A stretch of 38,202 nt of DNA, taken from positions 1-38,202 of the IMG/VR virus record IMGVR_UViG_3300046005_000450. One strand, 5' to 3'. Positions 6,220 to 35,734 of the stretch are shown one piece after another (positions within the stretch are counted from its first letter, which is position 1; the number at the start of each line of letters is the position of its first letter). A model generated the notes under the pieces. It was given only the letters and a program-made list of their open reading frames with translations. It ran no database searches and had not been told where the DNA came from. The DNA is from a virus. The position numbers and the translations under genes are program-made.

Positions 6220-6368
6220 TTTTCTACCCTCTTAAAATAAATTAACCCATCAATATCTGTATATGTTTCAACAAGGCCAATATTTTCAATAATGCCACAT
6301 TCAGAATTAAGGTTTAAATCTAGACTTTCGCCTTTTTCTAGTGCATATATTAAAGTTTCAGTTTGCAT
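6216..6368 (-). CDS. Hypothetical protein, 50 aa, first gene of minus operon
   Basis: Short acidic protein starting MQTETLIYALEKGE and ending FKRVEK. Two ATGs are in frame (6374 and 6368); I prefer 6368 because AAGGG lies 7 bases upstream, whereas the first ATG is only one base from that site. It is the first gene behind a strong promoter at 6415-6442 and is translationally coupled to the next gene by an ATGA overlap. No family is recognised. Confidence 0.68.
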   Translation of the reverse strand: MQTETLIYALEKGESLDLNLNSECGIIENIGLVETYTDIDGLIYFKRVEK

Positions 6369-6390
6369 TTTCATGCCCTTTCACATAATC

Positions 6391-6406
6391 GCGCTAAATC
6401 CAGCGC
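6391..6406. promoter_or_regulatory. Inverted repeat, candidate operator
   Basis: GCGCT-AAATCC-AGCGC is a perfect 5-bp inverted repeat with a 6-base spacer just downstream of the minus-strand -10 box, overlapping the likely transcript start and 5' leader. It could be a repressor site or a leader hairpin. Confidence 0.4.
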
Positions 6407-6414
6407 ATGAATGA

Positions 6415-6442
6415 ATAATACACCAATAAATTAGATTGTCAA
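6415..6442 (-). promoter_or_regulatory. Sigma70-type promoter for minus clamp operon
   Basis: Read on the minus strand: TTGACA (6442-6437), a 16-base spacer, then TATTAT (6420-6415). The -35 box is perfect and the -10 box has 5 of 6 matches. The expected transcript starts near 6408 and leads into the 50-residue gene. The ATTGGCAAT repeat array begins just upstream, so repeat-binding proteins could affect it. Confidence 0.75.
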
Positions 6443-6488
6443 ACAATTCTTTACACTATTTGACGTTATTGGCATTTTATTGTCATGG

Positions 6489-6519
6489 ATTGGCAATAGA
6501 TTGGCAATAGATTGGCAAT
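6489..6519. repeat. Three tandem 11-bp ATTGGCAATAG repeats
   Basis: ATTGGCAATAG occurs at 6489-6499 and 6500-6510, with a third partial copy at 6511-6519. The 11-bp period puts each unit on about the same face of the helix. The core ATTG-G-CAAT is itself a palindrome around the central base, so each unit may bind a dimer. Confidence 0.85.
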
Positions 6520-6667
6520 TGTGGCGGATCGTGCAAAGGCACAAGGCATGCGAGTCTTAGAGCTTTATTGGCAATATTGTCATTTATTATTGGTTATGCT
6601 TAGAAAAGTATATATATAAGGTATGTAAAACCATTGGCGCAAATGCCAGCGACTAAAATTGTCATGG

Positions 6668-6679
6668 CAATATTGCCAA
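6668..6679. repeat. Perfect 12-bp palindrome GGCAATATTGCC (approximate span)
   Basis: GGCAATATTGCC reads the same on both strands. It is the symmetric fusion of two half-sites of the repeat family found upstream and downstream, flanked by ATTGTCAT on the left and AATATGACCAAT on the right. Confidence 0.75.
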
Positions 6680-6741
6680 TATGACCAATAAATTTACCCG
6701 GCGCATTTTGCAGCCAGCATAATTCCAGCACTTAAAATCAA

Positions 6742-6845
6742 ATGACAATATTGCCAATGTTTTCTGAATGACAATATTGCCAATGTTTTCTAAATGACAA
6801 TATTGCCAATAAAAACTAAATGACAATATTGCCAATGCAGACAGC
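6742..6845. repeat. Four iterons at exact 26-bp spacing
   Basis: The 17-bp core ATGACAATATTGCCAAT occurs without change at 6742-6758, 6768-6784, 6794-6810 and 6820-6836. Start-to-start distance is 26 bp each time, about 2.5 helical turns. The 9-bp spacers of copies 1 and 2 are nearly the same (GTTTTCTGA, GTTTTCTAA); those of copies 3 and 4 differ. This conservation of cores with changing spacers points to protein binding sites. Confidence 0.92.
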
Positions 6846-6914
6846 AGACAGCAGCGAGTAAAAAGCGCATGGCAATGTGGCAATAATGCCAATGCAGACT
6901 GCAGACTGCAGACT
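6837..6914. repeat. GCAGAC-type heptamer repeats
   Basis: GCAGACA occurs twice in tandem at 6837-6850 and GCAGACT three times in tandem at 6894-6914. Both runs are preceded by GCCAAT, so the block GCCAATGCAGAC is present twice, 58 bp apart. Between them lie further GGCAAT motifs. Confidence 0.8.
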
Positions 6915-7004
6915 GCGATCTGCTGCCAGCTGCGCTGCTGCCTGGCTGCGCTGCGTAATACGCGCGGCTGCCTGCTGCATGCTGGATTCTGTTTGCATTT
7001 TGAT

Positions 7005-7030
7005 GGGGGGGTAGGGCCTTGGGGGAAGGG
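7005..7030 (+). other. Potential G-quadruplex tract
   Basis: Runs of 7, 3, 5 and 3 G on the + strand are separated by spacers of 2, 4 and 2 bases, which satisfies the classic four-run G-quadruplex pattern. The octamer AGGGCCTT also occurs twice here (7013-7020 and 7027-7034). It lies between the repeat array and pqqA. Confidence 0.6.
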
Positions 7031-7187
7031 CCTTCGTGGACGATGGTGTCAGAAGAAATTTTTATTTTTTATTACACTCAACATTGAGCAACAAGAATCA
7101 TGGTTTTCTGTATGGCGATATGTATAAAAAAGAGCAAAATGTATACATATACACAATGACGTGTATAAAAAACAGGAGAATTTGAAC

Positions 7188-7259
7188 ATGTGGACAACAC
7201 CAGCAGCTACAGAAATGCGTTTTGGCTTTGAAGTTACTATGTACGTAATGAACAAGTAG
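7188..7259 (+). CDS. pqqA: PqqA-like precursor peptide of the cofactor PQQ
   Basis: A 23-residue peptide that begins MWTTPAATEMRFG and ends FEVTMYVMNK. It keeps every hallmark of PqqA: length 22-24, an MW-xx-P start, the RxGFEVTMY core, and the Glu15-x-x-x-Tyr19 pair that PqqE crosslinks and from which PQQ is built. The ATG has AGGAG about 9 bases upstream. In cells PqqA is bound by PqqD, crosslinked by the radical-SAM enzyme PqqE and processed further by PqqB, PqqC and proteases; none of those genes is in this genome, so the peptide would depend on host enzymes. It stands alone between the repeat region and the late operon, a typical place for an acquired gene. PQQ serves methanol and other quinoprotein dehydrogenases in the periplasm, which suggests a methylotrophic host. 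Identification rests on the sequence pattern; the function in infection is inference. Confidence 0.9.
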   Translation: MWTTPAATEMRFGFEVTMYVMNK

Positions 7260-7288
7260 TCTAAACATTTGTTTAAACATAGGCGGTT

Positions 7289-7342
7289 AAGCCGACACTA
7301 GAGGATGTAGTAAGTAACGAGTTTTTCGGCTTTCTGCGTTAC
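7289..7342 (+). ncRNA. Possible RNA pseudoknot downstream of pqqA
   Basis: AAGCCGA (7289-7295) is complementary to TCGGCTT (7326-7332), and GTAACG (7314-7319) is complementary to CGTTAC (7337-7342). The two stems interleave (A, B, A', B'), which is the order of an H-type pseudoknot. It could protect the 3' end of a short pqqA transcript or act in cis upstream of the terminase genes. Chance pairing cannot be excluded. Confidence 0.4.
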
Positions 7343-7370
7343 ATGTAATAACTACCCAATCTACGCCCCC

Positions 7371-7399
7371 TTGACACCAGGCATGTAAACCAATAACAT
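7371..7399 (+). promoter_or_regulatory. Sigma70-type promoter for the late operon
   Basis: TTGACA (7371-7376), a 17-base spacer and TAACAT (7394-7399). The -35 box is perfect and the -10 box matches 4 of 6. The predicted transcript start (about 7406) coincides with the ATG of the terminase small subunit, which would make the message leaderless. Confidence 0.62.
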
Positions 7400-7405
7400 G
7401 CGCTA

Positions 7406-7810
7406 ATGACATTCCTATCGATACCTTTTACGCCACGCGAGGTAAAAGCCACCGAATCGCGTTTACAGAAAATATACGACGCAGCCAAGCTGGGTCTGAA
7501 GAATGACTCTTTGGCTCTCGCCGCCGGCATGTTGCCGTCCGAGTACCGGCAACTGTGCCAACTAGACCCCGTAGCGGAGATGGCGGCGCAGAAAGGTAAA
7601 GCAGACGGTGAGCTGGAGATGGCCCAGGTGCTAATCGCCTCCGCTAAAGAAGGCGACGCTAAGTCGGCGCTGGCTGTGTTGCAGCATGCACACGCATGGA
7701 CAGCCAAGACTGAGATAAGTGTGGATGTGTACCAAAAGATAAGTATCACTCAGGCGCTACAAGAAGCGCAATCACGTATCGTTGAAGGCACCGTCGTAGA
7801 CAACCAATAA
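7406..7810 (+). CDS. Terminase small subunit (putative)
   Basis: 134-residue protein placed directly before the large terminase subunit with a TAATG stop/start overlap, which is the standard order of the packaging genes. The N-terminal half is helical and has a phage-like segment (KNDSLALAAGMLPSEYRQL near residues 32-50) that could be a DNA-binding helix-turn-helix. It should recognise the packaging site and load the large subunit. No ribosome binding site precedes the ATG and the promoter ends 6 bases before it, so the message may be leaderless or a later start may be used. Family assignment is by context and general character. Confidence 0.72.
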   Translation: MTFLSIPFTPREVKATESRLQKIYDAAKLGLKNDSLALAAGMLPSEYRQLCQLDPVAEMAAQKGKADGELEMAQVLIASAKEGDAKSALAVLQHAHAWTAKTEISVDVYQKISITQALQEAQSRIVEGTVVDNQ

Positions 7811-9336
7811 TGCAACTACCTATATATAGCTCGGACGAAGAACAACTCCTCATGTCACGGCTGTGGGATCCGCGTGTTGCGGACGACCCTGAAGCGTTCG
7901 TGCTGTTCGCGTTCCCGTGGGGCCAAGCCAACACGCCACTGGCTAAGTTCAAAGGGCCACGTCAGTGGCAGCGCGACGTCTTAAGAACAATCGGCAAGCA
8001 CATAAAAGAAAACCGTGGGCAGGTCGACATGACGACACTGCGCGAGGCGGTCAGTAGCGGACGGGGTATCGGTAAGTCAGCCCTTGTTAGCTGGCTCATA
8101 ATGTGGATGTTGACAACAAGGATCGGCTCCAGCGTCGTGGTGTCAGCCAACAGTGAGTCACAACTGCGGTCAGTCACCTGGGGTGAGCTGACTAAATGGC
8201 AGGCCATGATAATAAACTCACACTGGTGGGAAATCTCGGCAACTAAGCTGGTGCCAGCGAAATGGGTGTGCGAGCTAGTCGAGCGTGACTTGAAAAAGGG
8301 TACGCGGTACTGGGCGGCAGAGGGTAAGCTGTGGTCGGAAGAGAATCCTGACTCATACGCGGGTGTCCACAACCACGACGGGATGATGTTGATATTTGAC
8401 GAGGCCAGTGGTATACCTGACGCAATATGGTCAGTGGGTGCGGGCTTCTTTACAGAGAACATACTAGACCGGTATTGGTTCGCGTTCAGCAACCCGCGTC
8501 GCAACCAAGGCTACTTCTTTGAGTGCTTTAACTCTAAACGGGACTTTTGGCATGGCAGACAAATTGACGCGCGGCAGGTCGAGGACACGGATAAAGCGGT
8601 ATATGAACAGATTATTGCCGAGTATGGTGAGGACAGTAGCCAGGCGCGGGTCGAGGTTTACGGTGAGTTTCCATCGTCAGGCGAAGACCAGTTTATCAGC
8701 CCGACACTCGTTGAGGACGCGTTCAAACGTGAGAGATATAAGGATACGTCTGCGCCTATCGTTATCGGGGTGGATCCCGCGCGAGGAGGTGCCGACAGCA
8801 CGGTCATCGTTGTCCGTCAAGGGCGGGATATCGTTGCTATTAAGCGCTATCAGGGCGAGGACACAATGACTGTCGTAGGTCGGGTGATCGAGGCAATAGA
8901 AGAATACAAACCAGTGATGACCGTCATAGACGAGGGCGGGCTGGGGTACGGCATATTGGACAGGCTAACCGAGCAGCGGTATAAGGTGCGCGGTGTGAAC
9001 TTTGGGTCACGGGCTAAGAACTCGATAATGTGGGGCAACAAGCGGGCCGAGATGTGGGGTGCGATGCGGGAGTGGTTACGCAGCGCCAGCATACCGGAGG
9101 ATAGAAAATTAAAATCGGACTTGACAGGCCCGATGAAAAAGCCTAACAGCAGCGGGACGATATTCTTAGAAGGTAAGAAAGAGATGAAGGCCAGGGGCAT
9201 GGCAAGCCCGGACGCAGCAGACGCGTTATGCGTGACGTTTGCGTTCCCTGTAGCCCATCGTGAATATGTTGACAAAGCTCCCCGTAAGTCGTATGCTACT
9301 GGTAGCGGAGCATCAAGTTCATGGATGGGGAGTTAA
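7810..9336 (+). CDS. Terminase large subunit (packaging ATPase-nuclease)
   Basis: Packaging motor of 508 residues, a normal length. The ATPase domain has a Walker A-type GRGIGKS at residues 84-90 and Walker B LIFDEAS at 194-200. The nuclease domain shows VIGVDPARGGADST near 318-331, VIDEGGLGYG near 374-383 and DAADAL near the C-terminus, the usual acidic residues of the RNase H-like fold. It pumps DNA into the procapsid through the portal and cuts concatemers. It begins the late operon after the small subunit and is followed by a 46-residue gene. Circular assembly of the genome agrees with headful packaging, but the packaging mode is not shown directly. Confidence 0.95.
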   Translation: MQLPIYSSDEEQLLMSRLWDPRVADDPEAFVLFAFPWGQANTPLAKFKGPRQWQRDVLRTIGKHIKENRGQVDMTTLREAVSSGRGIGKSALVSWLIMWMLTTRIGSSVVVSANSESQLRSVTWGELTKWQAMIINSHWWEISATKLVPAKWVCELVERDLKKGTRYWAAEGKLWSEENPDSYAGVHNHDGMMLIFDEASGIPDAIWSVGAGFFTENILDRYWFAFSNPRRNQGYFFECFNSKRDFWHGRQIDARQVEDTDKAVYEQIIAEYGEDSSQARVEVYGEFPSSGEDQFISPTLVEDAFKRERYKDTSAPIVIGVDPARGGADSTVIVVRQGRDIVAIKRYQGEDTMTVVGRVIEAIEEYKPVMTVIDEGGLGYGILDRLTEQRYKVRGVNFGSRAKNSIMWGNKRAEMWGAMREWLRSASIPEDRKLKSDLTGPMKKPNSSGTIFLEGKKEMKARGMASPDAADALCVTFAFPVAHREYVDKAPRKSYATGSGASSSWMGS

Positions 9337-9338
9337 CT

Positions 9339-9479
9339 ATGCCGTTAAAAAAATCACCTAGTAAAGAGGCTTTCCGTGCTAATGTTAAGGCTGAGATAGA
9401 AGCTGGTAAAAAGCCAGCGCAAGCTGTGGCCATCGCCTACAGTGTAAAACGTGAATCAACTAAAAAAGGCAAAAAATGA
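9339..9479 (+). CDS. Small basic conserved phage protein, 46 aa
   Basis: Very basic peptide starting MPLKKSPSKEAFRANVKAE and containing AGKKPAQAVAIAYSVKRE. Short Lys-rich proteins with the same layout (basic head, then a KPxxQAVAIAxS helix) are common near phage packaging genes; their role is not known to me. It starts two bases after the terminase stop and its TGA overlaps the ATG of the GroES gene (ATGA), so it is translated as part of the late operon. DNA or RNA binding would fit its charge but is not shown. Confidence 0.82.
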   Translation: MPLKKSPSKEAFRANVKAEIEAGKKPAQAVAIAYSVKRESTKKGKK

Positions 9480-9763
9480 AATTAAAACCTTTCGGTGAAC
9501 GCATCGTAGTAAAGCAAAAAGAAGAAGAACTAACAACGGCCAGTGGCATTGTACTGGCAAAGCAAGCTGAGAAGAAGTTTGAAGGTGTGATTGTTGCAGC
9601 AGGCCAAGGTGCCATATTAGATAATGGTACGGTCAGAGCGATGACAGTTAAAGTAGGTGACACAATACTGTTCGGTGAGTATTCAGGACAGAAATTTAAA
9701 TACGAAGATGAAAACTATCTTCTTATGAACGAAAAAGATGTTATTGGAGTGATCGATGGATGA
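9476..9763 (+). CDS. GroES-like co-chaperonin
   Basis: 95 residues, the normal length of the GroES/Cpn10 family. It starts MKLKPFGERIVVKQKEEE and has the mobile loop with GIVL at residues 24-27, the hydrophobic contact with GroEL, then the beta-barrel signature with GxxVGDTILFGEYSG and a C-terminal NEKDVIGVIDG. It should cap the host GroEL ring and help fold phage proteins, most likely the coat protein, as phage T4 gp31 does. It is coupled by ATGA to the small basic gene before it and overlaps the portal start by 8 bases, so it is made with the head proteins. Identification is confident from the whole-length pattern. Confidence 0.92.
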   Translation: MKLKPFGERIVVKQKEEELTTASGIVLAKQAEKKFEGVIVAAGQGAILDNGTVRAMTVKVGDTILFGEYSGQKFKYEDENYLLMNEKDVIGVIDG

Positions 9764-11966
9764 TATGGTTACTGTAGGGGTTGTCGCAGAAGGCGCTAAT
9801 AAGCCAAACGACAAAAAAGACATGCTTGCAACGATGCGAAGCCGCTTTACTATGGCGGTTTCTGCGTATTCAGAGAGCCGTGAAGACGAGCTTGATGACT
9901 TACGTTTCGAGGCAGGCTCCCCCGACAATCAGTGGCAATGGCCTGCGGACGTACTGGCTACCCGTGGCTCAGTTCAAGGTCAAACCATCAACGCACGACC
10001 TTGCTTAACAATCAATAAGTTACCGCAACATGTTCATCAAGTTACTAATGAACAACGCCAAAATCGACCTTCGGTGAAGGTAATCCCTGTGGATGATAAC
10101 GCTGACGTAGAGGTCGCGGAGATATTTGAGGGTGTAATTAGGCATATTGAATATATTTCAGATGCAGATGTCGCATACGACACAGCATGTGAAAACCAAG
10201 TCACCTATGGTGAAGGCTACATCCGTGTACTCACTAAATATTGCGACGACAATTCATTTGACCAAGACCTATACATTGGCCGCATCCGCAATTCCTTTAG
10301 TGTTTATATGGATCCTACAATACAAGACCCATGCGGCAGCGATGCTGAGTGGTGTTTTATTACAGAAGACATGACGAAGGCAGAATACGAGCGTCAGTTC
10401 CCTGATGCCGCGCCAATTTCGTCCATGATGCAGCAAGGTGTGGGCGATTCCTCACTAAGTCAATGGTTAACTGAAGACACAGTGCGTATTGCTGAGTATT
10501 TTTACTACGAGCATACGCCAACCAAGCTAAATCTCTACCAAGGCAACATGAGCGCGGTAGAAGGCAGCCGTGACGACAAAGAATTGAAGGCTTTAGGCTT
10601 AAAACCGCTTAAATCACGCATGGCAGACGTTAAAAAGGTCAAATGGCTCAAAACTAACGGCTTTGAAGTGCTAGAAGAACAAGAATGGGCGGGTAAATTT
10701 ATACCTGTTATCCGTGTTGTAGGTAACGAATACGAAGTTGATGGCCGTTTATACGTGTCAGGCTTAATCCGTAACGCAAAAGACGCGCAACGTATGTACA
10801 ACTATTGGGTTTCACAAGAAGCCGAGATGTTGGCACTGGCACCAAAAGCGCCATTCATAGGTTACGGCGGTCAATTTGAGGGCTACGAGACACAATGGAA
10901 GACAGCCAACACGACCAACTGGCCGTATTTAGAGGTTAACCCTGACGTAACAGACGGTGCTGGTGCGGTATTGCCATTACCTCAACGCGCTCAACCGCCT
11001 ATGGCGTCTAGCGGTCTATTACAGGCTAAAGCTGGTGCATCTGACGATATTAAGTCCTCAACTGGCCAATACGACTCCAGTTTAGGTGCGACAAGTAACG
11101 AACGCTCAGGCCGTGCTATCTTAGCGCGTGAAAAACAAGGCGACACAGGCACATATCACTACGTTGACAATTTAGCGCGTGCTATACGTCACTGTGGACG
11201 TCAATTAGTGGACATGATACCTAAAATTTACGATACAGAACGTATTGCTCGTATTATTGGCGTAGATGGCGAAGTAAAACGGGCTAAAATTAACCCGTCA
11301 CAAGCCGAGCCAGTGAAGAAAATTGTTGATGAGTCAGGCATTGTGATTGAAAAAATCTACAATCCTAGCGTTGGTAAGTACGATGTATGCGTATCTACAG
11401 GCCCAAGCTACATGACTAAACGTCAAGAGTCACTTGATGCCATGAGCCAACTATTGCAAGGCAATCCACAACTATGGGCTGTGGCTGGCGATTTATTCGT
11501 TAAAAACATGGACTGGCCTGGCGCACAAGAAATGGCTAAACGCTTTGCTAAGACTATTGATCCTAAACTACTAAGCGATGCCGATGAAGACCCAGCATTG
11601 CAAGCAGCACAGCAACAACTTGAAGCTATGGGCCAAGAGCTAGACCAATTACACGGCATGTTGCAAAACGTCAGCAAGTCTATGGAAGCGCAAGACTTGG
11701 CAATCAAAGAACAAGAGGCTAACATTAAAGCATACGACGCTGAAACTAAACGTATCAGCGCAGTGCAGGCAAGCATGTCACCTGAACAAATCCAAGACAT
11801 AGTCATGGGTACAGTTCACGGTATGATGGACAGCGGCGACTTAATTGGCGAGATGCCTGGTAGAGAAATGCCTGACGAAACTGCTGAACAGCCTGAAGGC
11901 ATGATGCCTGAAGAACAAATGCAACCCGAACAACCAATGATGCCGCCTGAAGGAATACAACAATGA
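9756..11966 (+). CDS. Portal protein, P22 gp1-like
   Basis: 736 residues, close to the 725 of P22 gp1. The N-terminal half contains typical P22-type portal features such as RPCLTINKLPQHVHQVTNEQ near residues 80-100, followed by NRPSVKVIPVDD and YDTACENQVTYGEGY. The C-terminal 120 residues are helical and Gln/Met/Glu-rich, resembling the barrel of P22-like portals. Twelve copies should form the ring at one head vertex for DNA entry and exit. It follows terminase and GroES and precedes scaffold and coat genes, as expected. The last 40 residues are low-complexity (Met, Pro, Glu, Gln), possibly disordered. Confidence 0.92.
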   Translation: MDDMVTVGVVAEGANKPNDKKDMLATMRSRFTMAVSAYSESREDELDDLRFEAGSPDNQWQWPADVLATRGSVQGQTINARPCLTINKLPQHVHQVTNEQRQNRPSVKVIPVDDNADVEVAEIFEGVIRHIEYISDADVAYDTACENQVTYGEGYIRVLTKYCDDNSFDQDLYIGRIRNSFSVYMDPTIQDPCGSDAEWCFITEDMTKAEYERQFPDAAPISSMMQQGVGDSSLSQWLTEDTVRIAEYFYYEHTPTKLNLYQGNMSAVEGSRDDKELKALGLKPLKSRMADVKKVKWLKTNGFEVLEEQEWAGKFIPVIRVVGNEYEVDGRLYVSGLIRNAKDAQRMYNYWVSQEAEMLALAPKAPFIGYGGQFEGYETQWKTANTTNWPYLEVNPDVTDGAGAVLPLPQRAQPPMASSGLLQAKAGASDDIKSSTGQYDSSLGATSNERSGRAILAREKQGDTGTYHYVDNLARAIRHCGRQLVDMIPKIYDTERIARIIGVDGEVKRAKINPSQAEPVKKIVDESGIVIEKIYNPSVGKYDVCVSTGPSYMTKRQESLDAMSQLLQGNPQLWAVAGDLFVKNMDWPGAQEMAKRFAKTIDPKLLSDADEDPALQAAQQQLEAMGQELDQLHGMLQNVSKSMEAQDLAIKEQEANIKAYDAETKRISAVQASMSPEQIQDIVMGTVHGMMDSGDLIGEMPGREMPDETAEQPEGMMPEEQMQPEQPMMPPEGIQQ

Positions 11967-33460: not shown

Positions 33461-34758
33461 TTTAATTCCTCCATTGCAACATCAGAAATAGCCCGCTTGT
33501 CATGCAAGGCCGCCCAAATACGTTCGTCTACTGTCTTATTAGCCAACAATATGTAGCACCACACATCATGCGCTTGGCCACTACGATGCAGACGGCCTAT
33601 GGTTTGTTCGTACAGCTCTAAACTCCACGGCAGTGAGAAGAACACAATCTTACAGCCACCGTGTTGTAAGTTCAGGCCGTGGCCTGCTGACTTAGGGTGT
33701 ATTAGTAACAGCTCAATCTCACCGTTATTCCAACGCTTAATAGCGTCAGGCTCGTCTATCGTCACGGCCTTAGGAAAGCGCTGCTTTAGCTTTTTAAGTT
33801 CTGCCTGGAAGTTATACACCACGATAGTGTTGTCGTGTTGGTTCTCGTCCAGTAAGTCTTCTAGCATGTCAAACTTGTGAAAGCTCAACCATTTAGTCTC
33901 AGAGCTGTCTTCGGTGTCGTAGATAAAGCCTGACGCTAACTGCTGTAGTTTAGACGTCAACACAGCAGCGTTAACGGCAGTCAATGTTTTGCCGTCCAGC
34001 TCCATCACAAACGTCTTCTTAAAGTGTTCGTACTCTTGTCGGTTGGGCAACTCGCACCGCACTTCTACCGTGTGACATGGCGGTAGCTTGTCGCTGTATT
34101 CGCCAGCCTCAAGCACATACGTAGCAGGCTTAATAATCTGCATCACGGTCTTAAGTGCATCAGGGCGTGGCTTCCAGTCATTAAAGTCTTTGTTCATTAG
34201 CACAAAGTGTTGCTGTAAGAACGCGCCTTTGCTACGGCCTAACAAGGTCTGATCGACTATCTTGCACTGGCCAAACACGTCTTCTAAGCCGTTGCTGGTG
34301 AACGATCCGGTCAAGCCCCAGCGTATTGTAATCTTGTCCATCAGCTTGGCGATGGCCTTAAAGCGTTTGCCAGTAGGATTTTTAAGCCTAGTCAGCTCGT
34401 CAAACACCACGGCATCAAAGCCCTTTAATGTTTCTAACGATTGCAGGCTGTCGTAGTTCGTCACCACTACATTAGCGTCGGTTTTGAACGCATCCTGGCG
34501 TTGCTTTTGTGTGCCTACTGCCACAACAAGGGTCAGGCGTGGCGCCCACTTAGGCTGCTCAACGGGCCACACGTCAGTGCAGACACGCTTAGGCGCAACC
34601 ACTAGGAAGCGCTTAACAAGCCCCGCCTCGATAGCGTCCTGCATTGCAGTAAGCGTGATGGCCGTCTTACCCGCGCCCACAGGCGCAAGTATCATGGCAC
34701 GGTCATGCTCGTATATAAAGTCAGCCGCGACTTCTTGGTAGGGTCTAAGTTTTAGCAT
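33457..34758 (-). CDS. SNF2-like superfamily 2 helicase
   Basis: 433 residues, a compact SNF2/DEAD-type DNA-dependent ATPase. Motif I is APVGAGKTAI near residues 25-34, motif II VVFDELTRLKN near 117-127 (DELT in place of DEAH), motif III-like WGLTGSFTSNGLED follows, and motifs V and VI are IHPKSAGHGLNLQHG and QTIGRLHRSGQ (385-395). It probably remodels or unwinds DNA-protein complexes in replication or recombination. It overlaps the methyltransferase stop by 14 bases and is coupled to the next gene by ATGA. This helicase with a VRR-NUC and a methyltransferase is a common phage gene set. Confidence 0.92.
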   Translation of the reverse strand: MLKLRPYQEVAADFIYEHDRAMILAPVGAGKTAITLTAMQDAIEAGLVKRFLVVAPKRVCTDVWPVEQPKWAPRLTLVVAVGTQKQRQDAFKTDANVVVTNYDSLQSLETLKGFDAVVFDELTRLKNPTGKRFKAIAKLMDKITIRWGLTGSFTSNGLEDVFGQCKIVDQTLLGRSKGAFLQQHFVLMNKDFNDWKPRPDALKTVMQIIKPATYVLEAGEYSDKLPPCHTVEVRCELPNRQEYEHFKKTFVMELDGKTLTAVNAAVLTSKLQQLASGFIYDTEDSSETKWLSFHKFDMLEDLLDENQHDNTIVVYNFQAELKKLKQRFPKAVTIDEPDAIKRWNNGEIELLLIHPKSAGHGLNLQHGGCKIVFFSLPWSLELYEQTIGRLHRSGQAHDVWCYILLANKTVDERIWAALHDKRAISDVAMEELK

Positions 34759-35734
34759 ACGCGTTAATTCTTTGTCCTATCCATTTCATTACAGGTACGG
34801 CCATTGAATTACCTAATGCTTTATACCTACTGCCATCAGGTGTTTTTTCTTTAATGTTAGTGTAGTTATCCGGAAAGCCTTGCAAGCGTTCGCACTCGAT
34901 TGGCGTCAATCTACGCACCCGCATAGAATCGCTGGCAATAGGCACGTTGCCTCCGCCTGTACCCCATCGACTTGTCACTGTCTGACATGTCTCGCCCATT
35001 TCTTTTACACGCGAATCAGCAGGGTGTGTCTCGTATACCGTAATTAAATCAGTAGCGTCTTTGTAATCCCTAGCCTTCATTGTGCTGGCGGTTCCGTCTG
35101 TGCTGTATTCACCGAATGCAACAAGGCGGTTAGTAGTAGTTCCGGCAGTGGTTTCCCGCGCTTCTCTGCTCGGCGGATTATCCCGGCGCATGCAGTCGGA
35201 CTCAAATAAAACTTCGGCGGCAGGTCGCCAGTCTCCAAGGTATCCGACAACAAACACACGTCTGCGTCTTTGGGCCACTCCGAAGTATTGAGCGTCAAAC
35301 ACTCGGTAGGCGAACCCATACCCGAGTTCAGCCAACGCCCCGAGGAAGGAGCCAAAATCCCGTCCACCATTTGAACTGAGGACACCTGGTACGTTTTCCC
35401 ACACAAACCATTTGGGTTTATAGTGGTCAAGTAGTCCGCAATAGACGAGGGCAAGGTTGCCTCGAGGGTCGTCAAGTCCTTTTCTAAGTCCTGCGACTGA
35501 GAAGGCTTGGCAGGGTGTTCCGCCAACGAGAAGGTCGATTGATTCATTTATATTCCATTCCTTATATTTAGTCATGTCACCATAGTTAGTGACGTTAGGG
35601 TAATGATGTGCTAATACCTCGCTAGGGTATTTTTCTACTTCTGAAAATCCAACGGGCTTCCACCCCATGTCGTGCCATGCTACGGTTGCTGCTTCAATGC
35701 CACTACATACGCTTAAATAATTTAGCCCAGTCAT
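34745..35734 (-). CDS. DNA (cytosine-5) methyltransferase
   Basis: 329 residues with the ordered C5-methylase motifs: motif I YLSVCSGIEAA near 6-16, motif IV GGTPCQAFSVAG with catalytic Cys75, motif VI WENVPG near 112-117, motif VIII QRRRRVFVVG near 155-164, a target recognition region near 180-270, and motif IX/X RRLTPIECERLQGFPDNYT, then KALGNSMAVPV. It transfers a methyl group from SAM to C5 of cytosine in a specific site, likely to protect phage DNA from host restriction. It overlaps the VRR-NUC gene by 32 bases and the helicase by 14. A second reading frame inside it (35077-35547) is also noteworthy. Confidence 0.95.
   Translation of the reverse strand: MTGLNYLSVCSGIEAATVAWHDMGWKPVGFSEVEKYPSEVLAHHYPNVTNYGDMTKYKEWNINESIDLLVGGTPCQAFSVAGLRKGLDDPRGNLALVYCGLLDHYKPKWFVWENVPGVLSSNGGRDFGSFLGALAELGYGFAYRVFDAQYFGVAQRRRRVFVVGYLGDWRPAAEVLFESDCMRRDNPPSREARETTAGTTTNRLVAFGEYSTDGTASTMKARDYKDATDLITVYETHPADSRVKEMGETCQTVTSRWGTGGGNVPIASDSMRVRRLTPIECERLQGFPDNYTNIKEKTPDGSRYKALGNSMAVPVMKWIGQRINAYAKT
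35077..35547 (-). CDS. Overprinted frame inside the methyltransferase gene, 156 aa
   Basis: An open frame of 157 codons, shifted by one base relative to the methyltransferase and fully inside it. Its product contains FYLSPTACAGIIRRAEKRGK near residues 113-132, then PLPELLLTALL. I recognise this block as recurring in proteins listed for many phages, where it overlaps the same methylase region. An AAGGA and a GGA lie 8-15 bases before the ATG at 35547. It is either a truly translated overlapping gene or a reflection of strong conservation of the methylase codons. I list it as possible. Confidence 0.4.
   Translation of the reverse strand: MNQSTFSLAEHPAKPSQSQDLEKDLTTLEATLPSSIADYLTTINPNGLCGKTYQVSSVQMVDGILAPSSGRWLNSGMGSPTECLTLNTSEWPKDADVCLLSDTLETGDLPPKFYLSPTACAGIIRRAEKRGKPLPELLLTALLHSVNTAQTEPPAQ

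Follow-up and report, generated by a model that had tools for sequence, protein, structure and literature searches.

pqqA, the gene of the PQQ precursor peptide, is widespread and overlooked in Methylophilaceae phages

Introduction

A 23-codon open reading frame close to the packaging genes of an environmental virus raises the question whether phages encode PqqA, the precursor peptide of the cofactor PQQ, and what this gene would bring to a virus that has nothing else of the pathway. The initial annotation had read the frame as a phage-borne pqqA with its own ribosome site and the residue pair Glu15/Tyr19, carried as substrate peptide without the enzymes and likely to be missed by most gene callers. 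One earlier description of a viral PqqA concerns population VP_266 of Lake Baikal, in which a methanol dehydrogenase, likewise viral, accompanied it (PMC7678222), and pqqA is also found among viral genes of a reservoir (PMC13188868). The present case resembles VP_266 in that pqqA is viral and the phage is presumed to infect methylotrophs (PMC7678222). The window, as the term is used here, is the whole stretch analyzed, an IMG/VR virus record of 38,202 bp.

Results

A PqqA peptide encoded by a podophage

The gene and the features downstream of it are the following:

7174..7178, + strand: Shine-Dalgarno sequence AGGAG, 9 nt 5′ of the pqqA start codon (direct reading)
7188..7259, + strand: pqqA, 23-aa PQQ precursor peptide MWTTPAATEMRFGFEVTMYVMNK (translation, profile matches, homologues)
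7371..7399, + strand: sigma-70-like promoter TTGACA-17-TAACAT, 3′ of pqqA (direct comparison with shuffles)
7406..7810, + strand: ORF directly before the large terminase (ORF list; position conserved in relatives)
7810..9336, + strand: terminase large subunit (phrog_2, 3.7e-45)
9756..11966, + strand: P22-like portal protein (PF16510, 3.8e-179; phrog_156)

The frame begins with ATG, comprises 23 codons and ends with TAG. An AGGA(G)-type ribosome site such as the one found here precedes nearly every viral and host pqqA copy. The peptide scored 40.3 bits against Pfam PF08042 (cut-off 21.1; E 3e-10), over model positions 1–19 of 19, and 38.8 bits against NCBIfam TIGR02107 (cut-off 20), an equivalog model; both cut-offs are curated. 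Glu15 and Tyr19, the source of the PQQ carbons, satisfy the E-x3-Y spacing. Judged by its sequence, the product of 7188–7259 belongs to the PqqA family. It shares with the Methylophilaceae type of PqqA the length of 23 aa, the match to the full profile, the Glu15/Tyr19 pair and the core EMRFGFEVTMY, but differs in being phage-encoded and remote from any pqqBCDE. No solved PqqA structure was found by sequence search, and an Rfam scan of window positions 6300–7500 gave no match close to gathering scores.

The virus hallmark genes of the window are those for the terminase, the portal, the major head protein and the head scaffold. Head-closure and tail-fibre proteins, a DNA polymerase A, a primase, a RusA-like resolvase, a helicase and a methyltransferase are encoded as well, and the portal protein, of P22-like type, identifies the virus as a podophage. 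Neither pqqE, the radical SAM enzyme of PQQ synthesis, nor a PQQ alcohol dehydrogenase was matched in the window. The gene, its ribosome site, its key residues and its solitary carriage were hence all as initially annotated.

On one side of pqqA is a non-coding stretch rich in repeats, on the other the ORF that precedes the large terminase. This ORF matched no family; judged by its position, it is probably the small terminase. The promoter at 7371..7399 probably serves the terminase operon, and it is weak, since one such site was found and 1.5 were expected in shuffles. The non-coding stretch beside the packaging genes (6569–6891) contains seven iterons resembling TGRCAATATTGCCA, of which four have a spacing of 26 nt, and is possibly a replication origin or a packaging site; the related loci L254 and L285 have different repeat units in its place. 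A further non-coding element (7000–7072), GGGGGGGTAGGGCCTTGGGGGAAGGGCCTTCGTGGACGATGGTGTCAGAAG with A/T runs after it, is strongly conserved in close relatives and recognizable in the distant L285. A phage-borne co-chaperonin GroES (phrog_3188, 9476–9763) adjoins the portal gene. The reading of the locus as an attachment site was rejected, the PF00589 integrase being absent from the window and from 15 related records.

pqqA in close relatives of the phage

When IMG/VR was scanned with the large terminase of the window, 80 loci were obtained. Among the eight loci with 95–99% terminase identity and enough upstream DNA, seven (L253, L256–L260 and L037) have an intact pqqA at the same place, 541 to 1059 nt before terL, with synonymous changes. 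The eighth, L254, keeps the leader, the ribosome site and the ATG but lacks 58 nt of pqqA, which represents either a pseudogene or an assembly gap; because of this loss, pqqA appears to be dispensable at least in L254. pqqA was present in none of 51 relatives with terminase identity of 84% or less and at least 1.5 kb of upstream DNA. It therefore marks one subclade. The relatives examined that have no pqqA are mostly of higher G+C content (47–64% vs. 44–48%).

pqqA in cultured phages and environmental viruses

The 23-mer was used as tblastn query against INPHARED. Nine genomes of cultured Methylophilales phages, of several unrelated phage types, were located there, and pqqA is present in every one. 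Peptide identity is 100% in P19250A, 91% in MEP301 and Venkman, 83% in MEP401 and MEP402, and 73% in four Melnitz isolates. These phages resemble the window in the peptide (73–100% identical) but belong to other phage families and carry the gene at other genome positions. The Manatee Spring podovirus ctXG6705 encodes a PqqA 96% identical. As to P19250A, a megablast of window positions 1–24000 returned a single match of 123 bp, 84% identical, that covers the gene together with some 50 nt in front of it. Since an identical peptide is encoded by a phage whose remaining DNA differs, the occurrence of pqqA in the window is beyond chance. MEP431–434, HIM624-A and EXVC038S are present in the taxonomy and stand outside the count of nine; HIM624-A and Venkman EXVC038S gave no match in INPHARED and are either absent from the collection or devoid of the gene.

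That the gene is overlooked, as initially proposed, was borne out: pqqA is annotated in none of the phage records opened, and in Melnitz and ctXG6705 an annotated ORF on the opposite strand overlaps it. The phage papers PMC8024684, PMC10580990, PMC9004378 and PMC8163748 make no mention of PqqA. A match in Acinetobacter phage MD-2021a was rejected, as pqqBCDE lie beside it on a bacterial contig; this entry (L129, CAKLQF020000010.1) also has fur and ppk and appears bacterial.

A degenerate pattern detected pqqA in at least 120 IMG/VR contigs; among the matches listed, every peptide is complete and nearly all have a ribosome site. With a narrower sub-pattern, a complete count of IMG/VR gave 70 contigs. 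Extrapolation from this count by the codon frequencies in the samples (24/120 and 17/120) results in about 2,500 pqqA contigs, a rough figure that includes some bacterial DNA. Gene sharing divided 128 loci, among the matches listed, into 14 groups, the largest with 77 members. Fifty long records were then considered for gene content. One terminase family is matched by 26 of them, pqqE is above cut-off in none, and a PQQ alcohol dehydrogenase of the methanol-dehydrogenase type was found in a single one, about 6 kb from pqqA. In this 72-kb contig (L042, group G012) the dehydrogenase spans 34049–35731 (608 bits summed) and pqqA lies at 41887, an arrangement that resembles Baikal VP_266. VP_266 has a methanol dehydrogenase alongside, whereas the window and 49 of the 50 long records have pqqA without one. 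Other PqqA types account for a minority of the viral copies (L004, L013, L018, L023, L115 and similar), and these viruses probably have hosts other than Methylophilaceae. We conclude that pqqA, beyond this single phage, is a widespread and overlooked gene of Methylophilaceae phages.

Host homologues and selection

When one genome per GTDB species was searched with the pattern EMRFGFEVTMY, matches came almost only from Methylophilaceae (Methylotenera, Methylophilus, Methylobacillus, Methylovorus, Methylopumilus and OM43), with a few from other Betaproteobacteria; several of the matched genomes have more than one pqqA copy. The host gene closest to pqqA of the window is a Methylotenera copy that differs at 2 of 72 nt. 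One bacterial bin (L235, CAIYXB010000030.1) contains P19250A-like phage DNA, the 150 nt 3′ of its pqqA being 95% identical to P19250A.

Among the matches listed, 116 distinct viral pqqA sequences encode 52 peptides. Viral pN/pS is 0.25 at codons outside the search pattern, vs. 0.24 at comparable host codons, and 0.08 at codons 9–12, 18 and 19. Arg11 is constant in these 116 sequences with all six codons in use. Tyr19 is constant despite codon change and is present in every copy listed without a filter on Tyr19. The invariance of Glu15 among the 116 sequences is conditioned, because Glu15 is part of the search pattern; it is also retained in the copies read from the pattern-free INPHARED matches. 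Viral pqqA is under purifying selection.

An upstream dyad box shared with the hosts

The region upstream of pqqA in the window includes the following elements:

7097..7114, + strand: ATCATGGTTTTCTGTATG, degenerate copy of the host pqqA dyad box (5.9 bits, host-only matrix)
7135..7140, + strand: -10-like hexamer CAAAAT, 20 nt past the box, the modal phage spacing (4/6 TATAAT matches; weak alone)
7148..7167, + strand: inverted repeat TATACAC-N6-GTGTATA in the pqqA leader (direct reading)

Expectation-maximization on host pqqA upstream regions, with L235 dropped from the training as phage DNA in a bacterial bin, resulted in an 18-nt, partly palindromic box, CTCATGAttTTCaTTAG, found in 107 of 115 hosts vs. 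2 in shuffles, and mostly located 110–150 nt before the pqqA start. A second half-site, TTCATGA, lies about 23 nt further on, and the -10 begins 43 nt after the box. The pattern is rare in six host genomes, and five of its six distinct exact sites precede pqqA. One near-exact site precedes an ORF that is probably pqqB. The box CTCATGAttTTCaTTAG, near-dedicated to Methylophilaceae pqqA and the probable pqqB, is a candidate operator of a putative pqq regulator. Box sites were recorded at L332, L335, L337, L343 and L353 and at host pqqA loci; a further one, at L346, precedes an ORF resembling catalase-peroxidase.

Upstream of viral pqqA, the host-trained matrix exceeds 8 bits in 65% of the regions, vs. 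2.4% of block shuffles, and the viral box is most often located near -90. The -10 starts 20–21 nt past the box in 31 of 82 phage sequences. From the box half-site to the -10 the distance is 37 nt in phage class A, and the same distance separates the proximal half-site of the hosts from their -10; the phage promoter therefore resembles the host promoter minus the distal box. The box of the window is weak at 5.9 bits, yet it is positioned as in other phages; five sites with an equal or better score occur on both strands of the whole window, and 0.015 are expected per 250-nt stretch. Dyads comparable to the inverted repeat of the leader occur in L253, L257 and L235.

Discussion

We consider it likely that pqqA of the phage is host-derived and its sole gene of the pathway, and that with it the phage feeds a consumable PQQ substrate to PqqB-E of the host. 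In an infected methylotroph, host RNA polymerase would transcribe the phage gene from the pqq-type promoter and translation would follow; the peptide would be bound by host PqqD, its Glu15 would be cross-linked to Tyr19 by host PqqE, and PQQ would be completed by host PqqB, PqqC and peptidases. Because each PQQ consumes one PqqA, an extra template could sustain the PQQ supply, so that supply and methanol oxidation would be kept up or raised under shutdown or degradation of the host chromosome. A phage that halts or degrades that chromosome while needing energy from methanol oxidation would gain from a pqqA of its own. Since the viruses carry the peptide without the processing enzymes, PqqA supply probably tops up methanol oxidation by the host, and we infer that PQQ may rise in infection.

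Work on PQQ production is pertinent here. As cited in PMC7936290, PQQ levels change in Gluconobacter oxydans on pqqA overexpression, and, as cited in PMC9851590, PqqA added to a cell-free extract led to PQQ; extra PqqA, supplied or overexpressed, can thus increase PQQ in other bacteria. The OM43 medium described in PMC9004378 includes PQQ. PQQ rises more when the whole operon is overexpressed than with pqqAB alone (PMC7936290), and one PQQ-producing methylotroph strain has five pqqA copies (PMC9851590). The precursor need not be limiting, because hosts often have several pqqA copies. With distinctly less assurance, we lean towards a broader proposal: that pqqA, driven by a host-type pqq promoter which the phages captured, is a hidden, substrate-only gene close to core status across unrelated Methylophilaceae phage families, and that one consumable peptide limits infections.

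It is unlikely that PQQ is boosted for redox protection, for signalling or for a different PQQ-dependent enzyme (a dehydrogenase of sugars or aldehydes, for instance), rather than for energy from methanol. PQQ does have several users and antioxidant roles; however, viral pqqA follows the Methylophilaceae, a family of methylotrophs, and is coupled to enzymes of the methanol-dehydrogenase type in viruses from Baikal and IMG/VR. We give still less credit to a decoy or regulator, a peptide that would occupy PqqD/PqqE or a protease, or damp PQQ synthesis, and so stop or redirect methanol oxidation. Short peptides are frequent phage inhibitors, and in the 50 long records and the window the substrate alone is carried, the enzymes never. 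Some lineages of a dead-end decoy should nevertheless have dropped Glu15 or Tyr19, and all residues of a good substrate are retained, including Tyr19, which lies outside the search pattern; moreover, pqqA and a viral PQQ dehydrogenase occur together in one record, which suggests an increase of PQQ and not a decrease. Least probable of all is that pqqA is a neutral passenger, a contaminant from host DNA or a leftover of recombination (e.g., an attachment site), since, although some IMG/VR contigs and the INPHARED entry MD-2021a are bacterial and a short, often multicopy gene is readily picked up, pqqA is present in genomes of cultured isolates, is retained in one place throughout the window subclade at 95–99% terminase identity and is under purifying selection, and the integrase PF00589 is missing from the window, from the cultured phages and from eight additional records.

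The supply of substrate to the host enzymes, our preferred reading, has a counterpart in psbA of cyanophages, a host-derived auxiliary metabolic gene that sustains a component of host energy metabolism with rapid consumption. The two differ in that psbA encodes a protein of the machine, whereas pqqA encodes a peptide that a cofactor pathway uses up as substrate. In the literature searched, which covers subscription journals thinly, we found no report of unannotated pqqA in all located cultured Methylophilales phages, of its solitary carriage, of evidence for its selection or of the shared pqq box.

pqqA is an auxiliary gene for a consumable ribosomal peptide, not for an enzyme, and one that standard gene callers overlook. 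It provides a marker, read from sequence only, for phages of methylotrophs, and the shared box may point to an undescribed pqq regulator used by phages. OM43 and Methylopumilus count among the abundant methanol oxidisers of sea and lakes; should pqqA be a routine gene of their phages, methanol oxidation may be sustained or raised in infected cells, and carbon flux would be affected.
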